A stretch of 64,000 nucleotides of DNA, taken from contig NC_087080.1 of assembly GCF_026151205.1 (NCBI RefSeq), positions 13,899,337 to 13,963,336 of the forward strand, in the 5' to 3' direction. Position numbers and translations under genes: made by a program. The notes beneath the pieces were generated by a model, which made no database searches, was not told the origin of the DNA, and saw nothing but the letters and a program-made list of their open reading frames with translations. The DNA comes from Bolinopsis microptera (lineage: Eukaryota; Ctenophora; Tentaculata; Lobata; Bolinopsidae). This document shows positions 5,937-16,708 of this stretch, in pieces. The stretch's first letter is position 1. Each line of letters starts with the position of its first letter.

Positions 5937-6005
5937 CTACTTCTGAATACAGCCAGCTTTCGAAAATGATATTCTCAGGTACTGTCTGCCAGCCTCTGTG
6001 ATGAA
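5937..6005 (-). CDS. PTBP: PTBP last exon: end of RRM4 and stop
   Basis: The acceptor is CTTTCAG. The exon encodes FITEAGRQYLRISFSKAG followed by CIQK and a TAG stop at 5939-5937. The final RRM4 strand matches the family's LRVSFSK ending. Confidence 0.92.
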   Translation of the reverse strand, partial: FITEAGRQYLRISFSKAGCIQK

Positions 6006-9000
6006 CTGAAAGAAAGGAATGAGTTAGAAATAGACGGTCTATCCATTGTGTTGTGAATGATATAATTTTAAAATGCAATTCAATTGAGTCGACTTAGTTA
6101 TTTTACCACATTGGATTGAAGGCGTTTCCTTTTCAAAATTATAACCGCCATTACTTAGATACTACCAACAGTCATCACTAACAACTTTTATCTCAGCCAT
6201 CTCAACTAATTGATCTATCTCAACTTTCTGAACTTTCTCAACTATGAACTACCATATCAATATCTACAACTAACCTCCTTGTTGTGGAACTGCACGAGAC
6301 CGCAGATAGCGGAACTGGTGTTGGTGAACTCAAGGAGTGCCATCTGTTTGTCAGGACGTTCTGAGGTCAGGAACCGGAAGTTCACAATAGTTCCGCAACT
6401 CTCAAACATCTTCTTCAACTCTTCTTCCGTTACTTCCGCCCTGAGGGTGATAACAGAGGTGAGAAATAGGAATGCTAAAGAAGAACTCTAAAAAGGAAGA
6501 CTGGCAAGTTTTCCAAGCGATTCATATGTATAATTTGCAAGTGTTTCTAATAATAGAACTATTAGTATAACTAGACGTCAGGAACTTACGGGATATTCGA
6601 CAGGTGAAGACAAGGGCTGGGTCCATAAACGTTTTCTCGAACTTTCTGGTTCGGTTTCTGGAAATGAAACATTTTCTAACATGTTTAAAATCGACAGCTT
6701 ACTAATCAAGGATCTCTCATCAACAAATTTCTTAATTCATCAGGTTTCTATTCCAAAATTGCTGGATTCTATTTCCCAATTTCCTTACCCTAAATCTGTG
6801 GAGAGGAGAATCAGAAAAGTCTTTCGTGAGATCTTGTGCTTCGTCCGTTGGTTTAGGCATCTGGACCTCCATGTAGATGGAGTAGGAAACGTAAATCTTC
6901 TTATCTCCGCATACAACTCCATTCAGTGATAGAAGAGCTGGAGAGATGTATAATGTTACTTTAGCTGGTTGAAAACTATTATTTCTCAATAAAACTATTT
7001 CAATTTCAATCCCAAAGAACCATAGCCCATAGGCAATAGGCATAGAAGGGTAAACCATAAATAAATAACGTAATAATGGACACGGTCAAGTTGACAGACC
7101 TTGCTGGGCAGAGATAGGATCCTGCATTTGTACCAGAGCAGTATCAGGCTTCTTGTAGAGAATCTTGACTCTCCTTACATCACCGTATACTCCTGCAAAC
7201 ACGCCAAAATTATACTGACTGTTCCGCGAGGTTTTTAATTTTGTGGGTGGTAAAATTTAGCAATCTTGAAATTTGCTGCTCAATTTTTGGTGAATTGTGG
7301 TATAATGGGAACACTGGCACAGAAGAGCCAGGTTTGATGATTTTATCAAGATTTAACCTCGATTTAAAAGAATTGTCGACACAATCAAGATTTGGTCCTA
7401 ACGTTAATGTTACAAGAAAGGAAAGAAAGAAGAAAGACGAAAGTTCTTATCTTACCAAATAGTATAAACAGTGCGTCGGGCGAGGCAATCTGAAAGGAAG
7501 AGAAGATATATAAAGATATAAGATCTTAATCCAGCAGAATTTAAGTAAGGGTGACAGTAACCGGGATGCATGCTCATCGCTAGAAAGCAATTGGTCGGAA
7601 CTTTCGTCGGAACTTTAAAAATTGTTCAGTTTTAAATCTCCATAAACTATGCAGTTTAAGGCGTATTTTATGTTTGAGATGTTAAATATCACGTTTTCGG
7701 AAGTCTCGCTTACGGAGATTTAAAACCGATCAATTTTTTGGATCAAACTATCGACCAGTCGTTTTTTACCGATGAGTATACATCTAGGTAAGTCTCATTT
7801 TAGCTCTTGTGCTCAATTTCTGTCGTTAAATTAGTTTTAATGATTTGATCTAGCAAGGCAAGCATTTCATTATGATTAAGTCAAATACAGCAACCAAGTT
7901 TTTCAAGCTCATGCATTATCTATTGAATGGGATTTCAACAGAATATTATAACCCACTAGAAGCCATGCATCTAAAATTATTCAAAATTATTCAAAATTAT
8001 TCAAAATTGAGCATTTATCAAATGCAAATGCGCTTGCTGATCACAATTCCAAATTTCAAGATTTAAAATATATTCGGCAATTTGAGCTGAAAAAGCTAAG
8101 AATTTAGGCATTCTAGCAGCACAATAATTGAGGGCCTTGGACATACATAGTATATACTATATATTATATTTATCTTAATTTCGTAAATAAGATTGGAGCT
8201 CAACTAGAAAGTAGCTGTACACGAAAGCGGTGTGTTACGATTATAAATAGCAAATCACAGCACGATGGATGATCGATTGAGAGATCAGATTATTTGTTTC
8301 GATATTGATCACATATCACGGTTCATGACAAGACTGCAAGGTAGTATCACATGTACAAGTAGCGAGAAATAGACATTGATACTGATGGGAAGCGACACAC
8401 GTGCACTTTAAACAGCGTGCACGTGTTTAAAGTGCACGTGCAGTACGTCCCCACTAGTAGCCTCCTGATAGTAAGTCAGTGTAATTGAAGGAGAGGTTGG
8501 TAAGTATGTGTGTTGAGTACTTACACATTCGGCTAGATTACTGACGAGGAGGACGGAAGAGATGGAGTATCCTAGTTGAGGATGTGGAGGTAGCTGAGCT
8601 GCTGTGATAACTGGGAATTAACTTGTTACACATTTATTGTTAATAATTACTTTTAAGCCGGAAATAGGAATCAAACTTGATGTCTGTCGACGCAGAAACC
8701 TTCCCTTTTGAAGGAAAAAAGACTTTGAAAAATCACCATTAGTAATTGGTATCTATCACTAACATATAATATAATAATCTCTACTATAATCCAGAGAATT
8801 CTTTCTGTATGTGGTATGCCCACGTGCAAATCAGACGAGAAATAGGAAGTTGCATAGCAACCATGGTAACGGTGTTAAAAGTGCACTTGCACGTGCAAGG
8901 ATTTGAGAGGGGCATTTTGATCGTTTTTTTTGTTATTAGGTGGTGTTCAGTGCGAGCAATATTTCAATTGGCTGTATGTTCGGTTGTGATGAATATTTGT

Positions 9001-12000
9001 TGATGCTATAAAAACTGACTACCAAAGAATACTATTAGCTTCCTCCCTGTGACCACGGGCTTTCTAGTAATATATATAATCACTATATCAATGTATACTT
9101 ACATTTAAAGTTATTAGGCAGTATCATCTTATCATAGTTCAGTGGCGACAAGGTGGGGGTAGTGATTGTACTAGGAGTGGTAGCGATCGTCTGAACTGGG
9201 TTTGAGGCTGCGGCTAAAGATGGGTAGGCGGTCAGCTGAGGCTGGATCATCTGTGTGTATTGGAGTCCCTGGAGTCCCTGGAGTCCTTGCATTGCACCTG
9301 GGGTCTGCATTGGACCTGAGGACATTGCTGGGTTATGCATTTTTCAAGATTTAGAGATTAATAAAGCGGAATGAAAATGTTTTATATAAGTCAAACTCTC
9401 CAACAAATTCAAATTAAAAACACTTGGTGACTCACTGAAGATAGGAATGTTGTCCATCCCCAATCTGGGAGTGCTCCTCATGAACTGAGGAGGTTCCTTG
9501 GTGTAGTCCCGGGCCTTGTCCGAGTTACTCTTCACGTCCAGGTCCTTCATCTTGGTTTCGGAGAGTCGGAGGGTACAGCATCCTGAGTACACGTTCTGGT
9601 TGTTGAGTGACTGGAAGGATAGTGAGCGGTTATTTTCATGTTAGGTAAATTATCAATTATTGATAATTTATTAGTTTATCTATTCACACATCGAATTAAG
9701 AGTTGATACTAGGGAATAGACCTGTTACCGGTTATAAAACACATTTCATCCGGCTCAGTGTAGTGGCAAAAAATGTATCTGCAAGGCTATAAAAAGATAA
9801 AAGTAAAGAAGGCGCAGTACGCATGTGCCATGCAGGGATATCACGAACACACTATATTGTTTCCGTTAAGACCTGTCAAAAACCCTGTTTAACAAGGTCA
9901 ACGTGCAAAAAGTACGTGTTTTCAGCTTCACGGTTTTGTTTCAAGTTTGCTTTTACACTTGTTGACATGATCGGAAAAATTACCAGGATTATGAATAAAA
10001 ACAAAAAATGTATCGGGATTTATTCATAACTATTTGGGTGTCACCTTGTGCCGGGAGTAAAATAAATAAATCAGATTAAAATTCTTCTTTTCTTCTGAAT
10101 TTTCAGAACAATGATTTGCTAGCGAGTAAAGAAGTCCAGTAAGAGGTTAGGTGTTAAACTTAGTGGAAACTAGAAGCAGAGTAAATGCAACATTGTTGTT
10201 ACTTACGTTCAGGGCAGCCATCGCTGAGAGCTGGTCCACATATTGGACGAATCCTTGGAACTCTGAGTTCTTGTTGAATGTCACGATCTTTGCGACAGGG
10301 CCGAACCTACGGATATTCACTTATTATATTATATGATATCAACATCAGATCATATTCACTTTTAAATATCATTATTTTACTCTGATTAAGTTACTCGCAT
10401 TCTTTAATTTGGATTGATTATGTACACAGATCTTATCCATGTAAAATTACAATGTGTGGTAAAAACCTTGAGAATATCTGATATAGAGTATCGAGTGTAA
10501 CACTGTAGATGGCTCTCTCGATGATGAGATGGAGAATACAACCCTCTTGTAGGGGTAACATCTGAGCGGTGGAGAGGGCGGAGGAGGAGACTATCTGGGG
10601 GATTGCAGGGGGCATGGCGTTCGGAGTCTGTGCTCCCGGATCTGGAGAAGATGGAACTGTTTGAGGGTTAGAACTGGAATGTGGGAAAATAGCGAGACTT
10701 ATGGGGATGTAAATGTGGTTAATTCAGTTTGGAATTTAGAAATGGAATCAAATCAGGGAATTTCATAAGATGATGTTACTGTGATCTATTGTGTGATAAT
10801 AAATTAATGATAGGTACTCACAAGAAGCCAGTGCGTTAAGGGCGGCCTGGGTGGCACTCTGGGACTCAGCATTTGTCTTCAAGTGACTGTGCGTTGATAA
10901 CTGTATGAATACGTGCTTGTTCCTGACAATGGCCGGCACGTAGTTGTGGTAGTTCACGAACGCTATTGCCTGAGATTCCTCCGCAAATTCTATGAATGCC
11001 TGGAATGTATAGAAAATGCTAACGACAAGAAAATGGTGGAGCGAATGGGATAAACGGGGGCGTACCGTTTTAGCACCCACTGACAAGTTATTAGGGGAAT
11101 AAGTAGTGAATGGGGCCGGGTTGGGGGGTAAGGTTTCAATTATTAGGACCCGGCCTCAAGCTCATTAGGTTAACACCCCCTTGTCATAACAATGTTACGG
11201 AAAGAATTTTTCGGGGATGATTATTAATTGGAGAATGAACTGATAATAAAGGAAACGGAGGTATGGAATGTAGTTTCTAGTTCTAGTGGTCTTTGGTACC
11301 AGGCTCTATGTTCTATCAATAGGCATGTTTAAAGTTTCATTTATAGCGCATTTAGACAAATGACACAAAGTTCGGATATTTATGCCGGATAAGGACAACG
11401 CATGGAAATTATCCAATATTTTGTAGTACTAAAACTTTGATTATAACAATGAGGGCCGGTGTTCAGTTGGAAAACGGATTGAGATGTCATTAAAATTAGT
11501 CTAACTCGTTAGCTTAGTCCCACCTTAGTGGGAGACAGGTTGGGGCATCACGTAATAATTTAGAAAGGCACAGTTTCATACAGAAATAAAAATGAATAGT
11601 TTGCTAAAAAGGGCTTTCCCCTATCAGAAGCTACAGTTTCCCATTTAAAAGGCTCCAGCACTGACCTGTCCCTTTTGTCGCATGATAAGGGTATTGATGA
11701 CAGTCCCGAACTTCATGGCCAATATACACAGGTCCAGAGCGGATATGTCCTCCGGGGCATTCCGTACGTGCACCACTTGGGTGGGTTGGATCGATCTTTG
11801 CATGTCCAACTTCAGCTGAAAACATTGAAAACGTCAAATTACATGAATTGGTATTGGTGAGTTTTTTGTGCTTTGATGATAGACCGTCCTATGAAGATCG
11901 AGTTTGGGAATGCTGTAACTGAGTCAGTGGACAGGAATGTAGCTGTTTCCGCCACTGCTAGCGAGTAAAATAGCAGAGATTCGTACCGGGCACAATAACA

Positions 12001-12270
12001 CGTATATTGAATAACACGTACATTGTCATGACCCTGACCGTAGACATAATACACGTCATACAGCTGGGACGGTGTGTCATTAGGTTGGGGATAGTGATCT
12101 GGAGTCACGTGGTAAGTATCCCGGGGGTCCTGGTGTGGAGCGACAGGACGGAGCTGGTAGCTGCCAGTCTGGGGTAGAGAAGTAGGAGGAGGGGTTGGGA
12201 AGTGTTCCATAGGATGTGTGGGAAAGTGTTCCATAGTCGGAGCGGCTGGGAAGTGCTCGATAGAGTTCAT
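5937..12270 (-). CDS. PTBP: Polypyrimidine tract-binding protein (PTBP/hnRNP I), 14-exon isoform
   Basis: This gene encodes an RNA-binding splicing regulator of the PTBP1/2/3 family, a nuclear protein that binds CU-rich RNA through four RRMs. Exons (minus strand, in order): 12270-12022, 11815-11666, 10999-10822, 10656-10467, 10306-10207, 9610-9436, 9327-9103, 8598-8525, 7489-7456, 7192-7100, 6937-6789, 6657-6590, 6440-6275, 6005-5937. All introns have GT..AG ends, every phase joins, and the coding length of 1,920 nt gives 639 residues plus stop. RRM1 lies near residues 96-172, RRM2 233-309, RRM3 437-510 and RRM4 553-634. Diagnostic blocks are VVHVRNAPEDIS, VTLDTLYQIFSRFG, SGCCTLRL, DKARDYT, SVLLVSNL, LFILFGVYGDV, LTKDFSDSPLHRF and LHLSNIP. 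The protein ends in ISFSKAGCIQK, where vertebrate members end in a similar VSFSK tail. The linker between RRM2 and RRM3 is rich in Q, T and P. The assignment to family is firm; which vertebrate paralogue it matches cannot be said. Confidence 0.93.
6275..6440 (-). CDS. PTBP: PTBP exon: RRM4 core
   Basis: The acceptor is CCCTCAG and the donor GTTAGT; 166 nt, phase 2 in, 0 out. It encodes AEVTEEELKKMFESCGTIV, DKQMALLEF and LVQFHNKE. This is the rest of RRM4 up to its last strand. Confidence 0.93.
6590..6657 (-). CDS. PTBP: PTBP exon: start of RRM4
   Basis: The acceptor is TTTCCAG and the donor GTAAGT; 68 nt, phase 0 in, 2 out. It encodes ENVYGPSPCLHLSNIP, the first strand of RRM4. Confidence 0.92.
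6789..6937 (-). CDS. PTBP: PTBP exon: end of RRM3 and RRM3-RRM4 linker
   Basis: The acceptor is TCTCCAG and the donor GTAAGG; 149 nt, phase 1 in, 0 out. It encodes LLSLNGVVCGDKKIYVSYS and QDLTKDFSDSPLHRFR. The second block corresponds to the conserved LTKDYxxSPLHRF linker that packs RRM3 against RRM4. Confidence 0.93.
7100..7192 (-). CDS. PTBP: PTBP exon: RRM3 core
   Basis: The acceptor is TTTGCAG and the donor GTCTGT; 93 nt, phase 1 in, 1 out. It encodes VYGDVRRVKILYKKPDTALV then QMQDPISAQQ, covering strands beta2-beta3 of RRM3. Confidence 0.93.
7405..7527 (-). promoter_or_regulatory. Pyrimidine tracts flanking the 34-nt exon (candidate PTB sites)
   Basis: On the minus strand the acceptor side (7527-7490) is pyrimidine-rich with ATCTTCTCTTCCTTTCAG. 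Just past the donor (7444-7412) comes a long run with TCTTTCTTCTTTCTTTCC. UCUU and UUCU elements of this sort are the known binding motifs of PTB. Tracts on both sides of an exon are a common arrangement for PTB-repressed exons. Binding itself is inferred. Confidence 0.6.
7456..7489 (-). CDS. PTBP: PTBP 34-nt microexon (RRM3), likely autoregulated
   Basis: The acceptor is CCTTTCAG and the donor GTAAGA. The exon is 34 nt and encodes IASPDALFILF plus one base of the next glycine codon. In mammals a 34-nt exon at the same place in RRM3 (PTBP1 exon 11, PTBP2 exon 10) is skipped when PTB protein is abundant, and the product is degraded. Here skipping joins TGT to GAG TAT ACG GTG ATG TAA, so translation would stop at 7177-7175 with five exons still to come. 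Pyrimidine tracts flank it on both sides. Size, position and consequence are visible in the sequence; the regulation is inferred. Confidence 0.92.
8398..8440. promoter_or_regulatory. Perfect 17-bp-arm palindrome with three CACGTG sites in a PTBP intron
   Basis: The left arm 8398-8414 (CACGTGCACTTTAAACA) is repeated exactly in inverted form at 8424-8440, around a 9-base loop that itself contributes to a third CACGTG. It sits in the intron between exon 8598-8525 and the 34-nt microexon, about 85 bases past the donor. It could be an E-box regulatory element or an intronic RNA hairpin. Confidence 0.65.
8525..8598 (-). CDS. PTBP: PTBP exon: start of RRM3, tandem CAGCAG acceptor
   Basis: 74 nt, phase 1 in, 0 out; the donor is GTAAGT after codon TGT. 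It encodes SISSVLLVSNLAEC, the first strand of RRM3. The acceptor is CAGCAG: use of the proximal or distal AG adds or removes one codon (an extra A) without changing frame. This exon precedes the 34-nt microexon. Confidence 0.88.
8815..8905. promoter_or_regulatory. Intronic CACGTGC pair
   Basis: CCACGTGCA near 8820 and GCACTTGCACGTGCAAG near 8882-8898 lie in the PTBP intron upstream of exon 8598-8525. The second is a short palindrome, TTGCACGTGCAA. They belong to the same E-box-rich pattern as the 5' region. Confidence 0.4.
9103..9327 (-). CDS. PTBP: PTBP exon: RRM2-RRM3 linker
   Basis: The acceptor is ACCCAG with a weak pyrimidine tract, and the donor is GTAAGT; 225 nt, phase 1 in, 1 out. 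The peptide is low-complexity, with three GLQ repeats followed by a T/S/P-rich run. The acceptor was chosen because it restores phase. A neighbouring exon boundary a few codons away is possible. Confidence 0.8.
9436..9610 (-). CDS. PTBP: PTBP exon: end of RRM2
   Basis: The acceptor is CTTCCAG and the donor GTGAGT; 175 nt, phase 0 in, 1 out. It encodes SLNNQNVYSGCCTLRLS and SNSDKARDYTKEPP. This is the most recognisable PTBP stretch in the window. Confidence 0.95.
10207..10306 (-). CDS. PTBP: PTBP exon: middle of RRM2
   Basis: The acceptor is CCGTAG and the donor GTAAGT; 100 nt, phase 2 in, 0 out. It encodes FGPVAKIVTFNKNSEFQG and FVQYVDQLSAMAALN. These carry the RNP1-like strand of RRM2. Confidence 0.92.
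10467..10656 (-). CDS. PTBP: PTBP exon: linker and start of RRM2
   Basis: The acceptor is CAAACAG and the donor GTTTTT, a weak site; 190 nt, phase 1 in, 2 out. The first 40 residues are a P/S-rich linker. The rest (LHLIIERAIYSVTLDTLYQI) opens RRM2. Confidence 0.9.
10822..10999 (-). CDS. PTBP: PTBP exon: end of RRM1
   Basis: The acceptor is ATTCCAG and the donor GTGAGT; 178 nt, phase 0 in, 1 out. It encodes AFIEFAEESQAIAFVNY and VFIQLSTHSHLKT, which close RRM1. The position and sequence match the AFIEM and IQFSNHKELKT blocks known in the family. Confidence 0.92.
11666..11815 (-). CDS. PTBP: PTBP exon: start of RRM1
   Basis: The acceptor is TTTCAG and the donor GTCAGT; the length is 150 nt in phase 0-0. 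It encodes TQVVHVRNAPEDIS, then LAMKFGTVINTLIMRQKGQ. These are the first beta strand and the beta2-beta3 region of RRM1. This is the first exon common to both 5' isoforms. Confidence 0.92.
12022..12270 (-). CDS. PTBP: PTBP alternative first coding exon 1b
   Basis: The exon starts at ATG 12270 and ends at donor GTACGT in phase 0. It encodes 83 residues rich in P, H, Q and Y, with EHFP occurring three times near the start. A CACGTG/CCAAT cluster lies 100-165 bases upstream (12372-12434), which makes an independent promoter likely. An alternative is that it is an internal exon, because a TTTCTAG acceptor-like site lies about 30 bases upstream of the ATG. Confidence 0.7.
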
Positions 12271-13428: not shown

Positions 13429-13595
<167 letters not shown>

Positions 13596-14604: not shown

Positions 14605-15115
14605 TTACTGAAATAAAGCAGCTCAAGATACAAAAGACAATTTAGAAACTAATACTTATTATCTTTACTGTTCAGTGACCGAAAGATTTTCCTTTCAACA
14701 TGGTATCACACAGGTTCCCGCAATTCGCATTCTTGAGTCACACACACACACTCACACACTTTCACAAACGCTTTGTTTCGTGCAGACTCAGTGCATTGTT
14801 CTACCTGGCTATCTGGCTACATGAGCCTCATTAAACCAATACTGGTGCCAGATCGTGGAGCTTGACTCTTATAATAATACACGCAGCGAGCTCACCGTGA
14901 TACACTGATTATTATAACTTGAGGGTCAGAGAGTGGGTCTGTATTCATGAAAGTATATTATATATATACATTTTTTGACATAGAGCTACTCGCCACTTAT
15001 GTCCAGGATCATTATAATATATAACGCCGGACTTCTAGGCAACGTGCTTGGTTGTGGGATAATCCATGAAAGTAAGAGAACAGATATTGTTGGTACAGAC
15101 ATGGGAGATGCTGAG

Positions 15116-15223
15116 TGGCGGTGGGGTTAAGGTACGTGGCGGTGGGGTTAAGGTACGTGGCGGTGGGGTTAAGGTACGTGGCGGTGGGGTTAAGGTACGT
15201 GGCGGTGGGGTTAAGGTACGTGG
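15116..15223 (+). repeat. 21-bp minisatellite, about five copies
   Basis: The unit GGCGGTGGGGTTAAGGTACGT is repeated nearly perfectly about five times. Being a multiple of three, it is open on both strands (VRGGGVK on plus, PPPRTLT on minus). That makes apparent peptides here unreliable. Near-identity of the units suggests recent expansion. Confidence 0.93.
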
Positions 15224-16708
15224 CAATTCTTACAGACTTATTAAGTGATTTTGACTAACGGTACAGCGGAAACAAGGTAAAACCTGCAAAGTTTATCACT
15301 ATTAAAAAATAAAAGCCCGCCAATAATAATTCCGATATTAATGGCCGCTGGCTGACGTGCAAAGGGCAACTTGATATAGCGGCGATTAACAACCAATACA
15401 GCTAACTGGATCTGTGACAAGGGCAAATTTACAGTGTTGTCAGAAAAACACACCACCCTACAACCGACAGCAATACCCTGATCGAGTCTAGCCGTCTAGA
15501 ACGGGATTAACTGGGATAGAAGTTACAGAACATGCGAGGAAAAGTCTAGGATTAAAGTTGAGAGGGAGAGAGCGAGGGAGAGAGCGAGAGAGAGAGAGCG
15601 AGGGCGGGCGAAGCCCCCCTTATGCTCTTGGTCTGTCACCACCCCGCTCCGTGATAAGAATCTATTGTAACCCCGGGTGTACATTCACTGTACACTGTAC
15701 ACCCCGTATTAAAGGCACATTCGTGTCAACAGAATGTAGTGCTGAGCTCAACTCCCTCACTTTCTAATATTCGCACAATTAAAGATGTGATATGCGTCTG
15801 GGGGGAGTTCTCTCTCCTGCGAGCTGCTAATATAATCGGAGCTTCTTCGGTACGAGACTTTATGTCACGGATATTAGCAAGACTTCGTCGGTTCGTTATA
15901 GTTGGGTGTCACTCCGATATGTTTAACCAATCCTACCGATATGTTACGAGTTGTTGATAGAAGTTGAGCGAAGACTACACTTGTTAATACTGGGTTTGGA
16001 GCTATGAATAAATGGGGTGACTGGAGCGAATGCCATGCCATATGAAAATAACTCTATACGAGCAGAATGTTATGACAATGCTGGTAGTCATAGTGCGACT
16101 CATTGCAGACTGACGAGGTAAACGGCTCCATGTTTTCAGTAATTATCAAATCATAATGACCACAGAGACCCTCACCACCCCTCACCAAACGGTTAAAAGA
16201 TCATCATAAAATCTAATTTCTGAAAATTAGGTCTCAGAATTTGCACCTAACATGTTGGTTCGTGATCGTGAAATTTCCATACCTAATGACCTATGTTGTT
16301 GTGTTGTCGCTGATGAGTAATTACATAAAGACATAACCAGTGAAACAGAAAATATTCCCCCGCATAGATCTTTATAAATATAAGTGAATTCTAAGGCAAA
16401 TAAAGAAATATAATCACGGCTAACGAACTGAAACCCTCTTCGAAACTGTTGGTTATAAGGACCAGCTGAATGAATGGCGCTCAGGAGAACAATGCCATGA
16501 TGACACAGAGGCACAAGAACGATTATAACCGGTTATAATGCAACCTACATAATGTTTATATAACTACTGCAAAACAAAATACAGTAAAAATAAGAGTCCG
16601 AGAAAGCTCGGTATTTGGAGAGTAGGGATCTCTTGGGTGTAATTAGGTCGGAGATCATGTTACGAGGCATTACCAATGATCGGAGGGAGAGAAACGTTGT
16701 ATATGTGT

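Follow-up and report, generated by a model that had tools for sequence, protein, structure and literature searches.

A 34-nt RRM3 exon in a ctenophore PTBP gene as a candidate for ancestral splicing feedback

Mammalian PTBP1 exon 11 and PTBP2 exon 10 are 34-nt exons in the RRM3 part of the gene and are autoregulatory: PTB promotes their skipping, and NMD degrades the skipped mRNA (PMC1940037, PMC1431707). A PTBP gene in the window analysed here, a 64,000-nt stretch of the genome of the ctenophore Bolinopsis microptera, carries an exon that a first-pass annotation had likened to them. This locus therefore raises two questions: is the ctenophore exon the same exon by descent, and might it serve the same feedback?

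The PTBP coding region occupies positions 5937-12270 of the minus strand, the strand of all exons and introns of this gene given below. Our 14-exon model, with borders read from the sequence alone, runs from 12270 to 5937 as a single open frame of 634 codons, with every intron GT-AG, and yields a 634-aa protein with four RRMs. This protein passes the TIGR01649 (hnRNP-L/PTB/hephaestus) profile at 398 bits against a cut-off of 287.4, and a profile search places RRM_1 in four stretches of it. In a PDB search, RRM3-4 matched the solved structures of PTBP1/PTBP2 at 163-169 bits versus 63-64 bits for hnRNP L; judged by sequence, the gene is closer to PTBP than to hnRNP L. The Bolinopsis genome holds at least one PTBP gene, a lower bound from scoring 12 candidates of the first look: 14 matches comprised 12 to this gene and two elsewhere, in an hnRNP L-like gene and, with E 1.07, in another RRM gene. 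Because one PTBP gene was found, buffering by a paralog is no obvious alternative to self-regulation.

Several further features lie upstream of exon 9. The exon 4 donor, GTTTTT at 10466, pairs weakly with U1 (-4.1), and the exon 1 donor, GTACGT, pairs more weakly than that (-2.0). Candidate extra first coding exons lie at 19639-19594 and 14577-14385 on the minus strand, each in frame via 13002-12923 to exon 2; beside the first exon at 12270, they may point to alternative promoters, as reported for ptb-1a/ptb-1b of C. elegans (PMC4876481). Between 14577-14385 and 13002-12923, at 13430-13587, the PTBP coding strand holds a CT repeat some 158 bp long (AG x 79 on the plus strand), to which PTBP might bind strongly in the pre-mRNA of its own gene. 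A perfect tandem repeat at 15115-15224 consists of 5.2 copies of a 21-bp unit (100% matches).

Exon 9, at 7456-7489, measures exactly 34 nt, as the first-pass annotation had it, and reads from 7489 to 7456 between TTTCAG and GTAAGA. It runs from phase 0 to phase 1 within RRM3 and codes IASPDALFILF(G), supplying the first base of the G codon. Ahead of it are exon 8 (8525-8610; 86 nt), which encodes the first strand of RRM3 (VLLVSNLAEC) and ends in the donor GTAAGT, and intron 8 (7490-8524), which, at 1035 nt, exceeds the other 12 introns of the model in length. It is followed by intron 9 (7193-7455; 263 nt) and exon 10 (7100-7192; 93 nt). The RRM3 alignment passes through exon 9 without a gap, pairing ASPDALFILFG with VTPQSLFILFG of the PTBP1/PTBP2 RRM3 chains in solved structures. 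Together with the published 34-nt length and RRM3 place of the mammalian exons, this bears out the earlier statement that the exon sits where PTBP1 exon 11 and PTBP2 exon 10 sit, and the borders of human exon 11 presumably match those of exon 9 to the nucleotide. On these grounds exon 9 is almost certainly the inherited 34-nt PTBP exon. The best explanation of its length and place is that it is the ctenophore ortholog of PTBP1 exon 11, PTBP2 exon 10 and C. elegans ptb-1 exon 11, and we infer that both introns flanking it are homologous with those of worm and mammal.

The sole other clear family member that we found is the hnRNP L-like gene (locus L023, contig C12). All five PDB matches of its RRM3 exon (L023:7683-7870) at E 0.01 are hnRNP L. 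This exon of 188 nt is uninterrupted across both positions that correspond to the exon 9 borders, so the exon 9 introns are not common to that gene here. We had considered these introns as an inheritance shared by PTBP and hnRNP L, and the hnRNP L-like gene is without both; by sequence, the PTBP line may have acquired them or the hnRNP L line may have lost them. The surroundings of the hnRNP L-like gene include, upstream, a 472-aa open frame at L023:647-2065 (minus strand) that by eye resembles a LINE-type reverse transcriptase and, within one of its introns, a tandem repeat of about 13 bp (tagtttgcagtgc), also noted by eye, at L023:8020-8130. Genes of the glutamate-receptor ligand-binding family gave 32 genome matches on several contigs, many of them single open frames of at least 900 aa and intronless there. 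Of two ionotropic glutamate receptors compared with solved structures, one (L027) matched ML032222a iGluR, a Mnemiopsis protein, best at 407.5 bits, with the runner-up protein at 243.5; the other (L026) had kainate receptor 2 as its top match at 191.1 bits, ahead of ML032222a at 186.5.

What would skipping of exon 9 do? The first-pass annotation predicted a TAA six codons on with five exons to follow, and both details hold. Joining 8525 to 7192 reads TGT GAG TAT ACG GTG ATG TAA; the stop, at 7175-7177, falls in the first of the five following exons, 75 nt ahead of the exon 10/11 junction, which leaves four junctions 3' of it, at 75, 224, 292 and 458 nt. The product would end C-EYTVM-stop after 447 residues, truncated inside RRM3. 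Skipping exons 8 and 9 together removes 120 nt, a multiple of three, and also meets a stop, after 413 codons. The genome contains matches to UPF1, Upf2 and Mago domains, from genes of NMD and the EJC. In mammals, repression of exon 11 is reported to require RRM3 and RRM4, so the RRM3-truncated product would probably be unable to keep the loop going. The frameshift by itself is uninformative about exon 9, because 8 of the 12 internal exons (3, 4, 5, 6, 8, 9, 11 and 12), when skipped singly, leave a stop over 50 nt ahead of the last junction; it is the rule in this gene, and we rejected it as evidence for regulation.

The pyrimidine tracts around the exon are more telling. We counted overlapping TCTT, TTCT, CTCT and TCTC as PTB-type motifs in the last 50 nt upstream of each acceptor and at +7 to +50 (44 nt) downstream of each donor. 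The last 50 nt of intron 8 (7490-7539) hold eight motifs and the downstream interval holds nine, in agreement with the earlier remark that TCTT/TTCT-rich tracts flank the exon. Both counts lead the gene: eight is the highest among 13 acceptors (runner-up exon 13, seven) and nine the highest among 13 donors (runner-up two). The upstream pyrimidine fraction, 0.73, is not the highest (0.75 at exons 3 and 13), and exon 9 itself contains none of the four motifs. Intron 9 is the densest of the 13 introns at 6.1 motifs per 100 nt (intron 12: 6.0), and when the introns are ranked by their best 44-nt window, introns 9 and 8, both adjoining exon 9, come out ahead with nine and eight motifs. The element on the downstream side is a 30-nt pyrimidine tract at 7414-7443 (20 T, 9 C, 1 G), which begins at +13 of intron 9 and is a putative binding site for PTBP or for a TIA1-type protein.

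How unusual such flanks are depends on the background chosen. Of the 205 GTRAG donor-like sites that the window contains, 3 have at least nine downstream motifs, one of them at exon 9 itself and two in CT-rich repeats; at least eight upstream motifs occur at 6 of 222 acceptor-like sites. Counts of nine or more are found in 0.55% of all 44-nt intervals on both strands of the window and in 0.025% of 100,000 sequences simulated from a first-order model of the PTBP gene's own introns. Among 84 acceptor/donor-like pairs 20-250 nt apart, exon 9 alone reaches both flank counts, the thresholds being its own values and thus chosen post hoc. The flanking motifs are moderate evidence, of the order of one in a hundred, at an exon preselected by homology.

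The splice sites themselves look conventional. The AG-free zone ahead of exon 9 spans 33 nt, where such zones across the gene range from 9 to 67, and candidate yTnAy branch sites lie at -22 and -30, with another at -57. Pairing of the donor with U1 (-8.0 kcal/mol) is the third best of 13, so the donor is not weak, and we rejected a weak donor as the cause of regulation. Vertebrate exons of this kind have AG-free zones of 381 nt (human PTB exon 11), 438 nt (nPTB exon 10) and 590 nt (Fugu), and the branch point of human PTB exon 11 has been verified at -351 (PMC1431707). Taking an AG-free zone of at least 150 nt as the mark of a vertebrate-type distant-branch-point exon, we rejected that assignment for exon 9. 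Its AG-free zone, its donor and the absence of motifs within it place it outside the vertebrate class and nearer to human ROD1/PTBP3 exon 10. The first-pass proposal of a conserved autoregulatory exon thus stands in part: homology, as expressed in length, RRM3 place, frameshift and flanking motifs, is upheld, a working feedback loop is a prediction, and the vertebrate branch-point arrangement is absent.

In the mechanism that we propose, exon 9 would be an 'essential' exon handed down from the common ancestor of animals. At low PTBP levels the exon would be included and full-length protein made; at high levels PTBP would bind the pyrimidine tracts that surround the 3' splice site and the one at +13 to +42 of intron 9 and block or loop out the exon, and the resulting 8525-7192 mRNA, with its stop after 447 codons, would be removed by NMD. 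Binding, skipping and decay are presumed for the ctenophore by analogy of sequence, and the balance tips slightly toward exon 9 being skipped under PTBP and the skipped mRNA being degraded. The published C. elegans findings and the tract downstream of the exon raise this probability; the PTBP3 precedent and the ordinary look of the exon's 3' splice site lower it. Even for human exon 11, a large knockdown analysis reports changes that are small and non-significant (PMC6547761).

The same facts can be read as an inherited but constitutive exon: the introns would be ancestral, the ctenophore exon always included and skipping an error, with feedback arising later in worms and vertebrates or lost here. 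We regard this as possible but doubtful. It fits the short AG-free zone in place of the vertebrate arrangement of 381-590 nt, the donor that is third strongest of 13 and the plausible branch sites at -22 and -30, and the frameshift common to 8 of 12 internal exons asks nothing more of it. Human PTBP3 exon 10 is apparently a precedent: its branch point is reported to be conventional, and ESTs gave no sign that it is skipped (PMC1940037). In the ctenophore Mnemiopsis, moreover, multiples of three are reported to make up 76.9% of skipped exons versus 37.8% of unskipped ones (PMC6142364), so frameshifting skips are a minority there. Constitutive inclusion nevertheless leaves the dense tract at +13 to +42, unusual among 205 donor-like sites, unexplained, and a loop common to worm and mammal makes an ancestral loop simpler, at least for Bilateria.

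Other readings take the tract as their subject. It might be an inclusion enhancer that recruits a TIA1-type protein, or an activating PTBP, and aids U1 at a very short exon, in which case PTBP would raise inclusion or leave it unchanged. TIA1-type enhancers act just downstream of donors, and activation of inclusion from downstream PTB sites has been reported; the tract, with T at 20 of its 30 positions and starting 13 nt past the donor, would suit such a role, and a 34-nt exon is plausibly in need of help. We nonetheless think enhancement unlikely, given that the donor is already strong, that the nine motifs, being TCTT/TTCT, are of PTB type and not plain runs of U, with similar motifs on the acceptor side, and that the PTB regulation known for the orthologous exon is repressive (PMC1940037, PMC4876481). 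Chance or slippage could also have left a tract with no role, for instance the remnant of a CTTT-type simple repeat. The window is rich in pyrimidine repeats: counting both strands of the window (128 kb of strand), 10 tracts of at least 24 nt have at most one purine, 7443-7414 among them, and the roughly 158-bp CT repeat lies in the same gene. Against this, TRF makes no tandem-repeat call for the tract at score 50, the tract stands at the one exon that homology singles out, and, with the post hoc thresholds, flanks this rich on both sides mark only that exon among the 84 pairs. A tract of no function seems to us quite improbable.

Feedback through skipping of exon 9 is the reading that we prefer, and its interest lies in its possible age. 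Systems of this kind are known already, and one in a ctenophore would take the PTBP loop to the deepest animal split if ctenophores are the sister of all other animals, as the title of PMC10232365 argues. PTBP feedback may then be as old as animals. We advance tentatively, as a conjecture with a little less than an even chance, that the skip-and-decay loop is ancestral to all living animals and was kept in ctenophores, nematodes and vertebrates, its original form being tracts that hug a tiny essential exon and the distant branch point being a vertebrate addition. Should ctenophores regulate the exon, one splicing switch would have persisted throughout animal evolution with its exact exon length kept, and it would stand as one of the rare examples, SR proteins aside, of frameshifting alternative splicing that has been conserved. 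Such a finding would also argue that control of PTBP dosage is as old as animals, and that the requirements of the loop, a short essential exon flanked on each side by tracts, are separable from what vertebrates added to it. If the exon is instead constitutive, the PTBP gene would show exon architecture persisting without regulation.

Among the literature matches listed, from a search conducted mostly outside subscription journals, there was no description of a 34-nt PTBP exon in a ctenophore, sponge, placozoan or cnidarian. Among systems already known, the SRSF5 splicing-factor NMD switch is reported to be conserved among all animals and seen in fungi (PMC4379411); that switch, in an SR gene, involves a poison exon or a retained intron, whereas PTBP exon 9 would be an essential exon. 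The ctenophore exon resembles mammalian PTBP1 exon 11 and PTBP2 exon 10 in its 34 nt, its place in RRM3, the frameshift on skipping and the flanking PTB-type motifs, and it differs from the mammalian and Fugu exons, with their distant branch points and AG-free zones of 381-590 nt, in a zone of 33 nt. In this last respect it is like the equivalent exon 10 of human PTBP3 (ROD1), with its conventional branch point. Nematode introns are usually short, so a distant branch point is unlikely to be essential to the loop.

The closest parallel is C. elegans ptb-1. Its exon 11 is a 34-nt cassette encoding part of RRM3, and skipping causes a frameshift and a stop; the smg-2 NMD mutant stabilises the skipped forms, with ptb-1a inclusion going from 77.6 to 65.2%, and the same report describes them as undetected in the ptb-1 mutant (PMC4876481). 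Its authors termed the conservation of role, position and size between mammal and worm surprising (PMC4876481). The feedback is therefore already known beyond vertebrates, and the first-pass reading, which compared mammals only, becomes both more plausible and less new. Bolinopsis exon 9 shares with the worm exon its 34 nt, its RRM3 place, its frameshift with a premature stop and, as candidates, alternative first exons. Skipping, NMD and dependence on PTB-1 have been demonstrated in C. elegans, whereas exon 9 is known from its sequence, in which it has the length, place and reading-frame consequence of the worm and mammalian exons.
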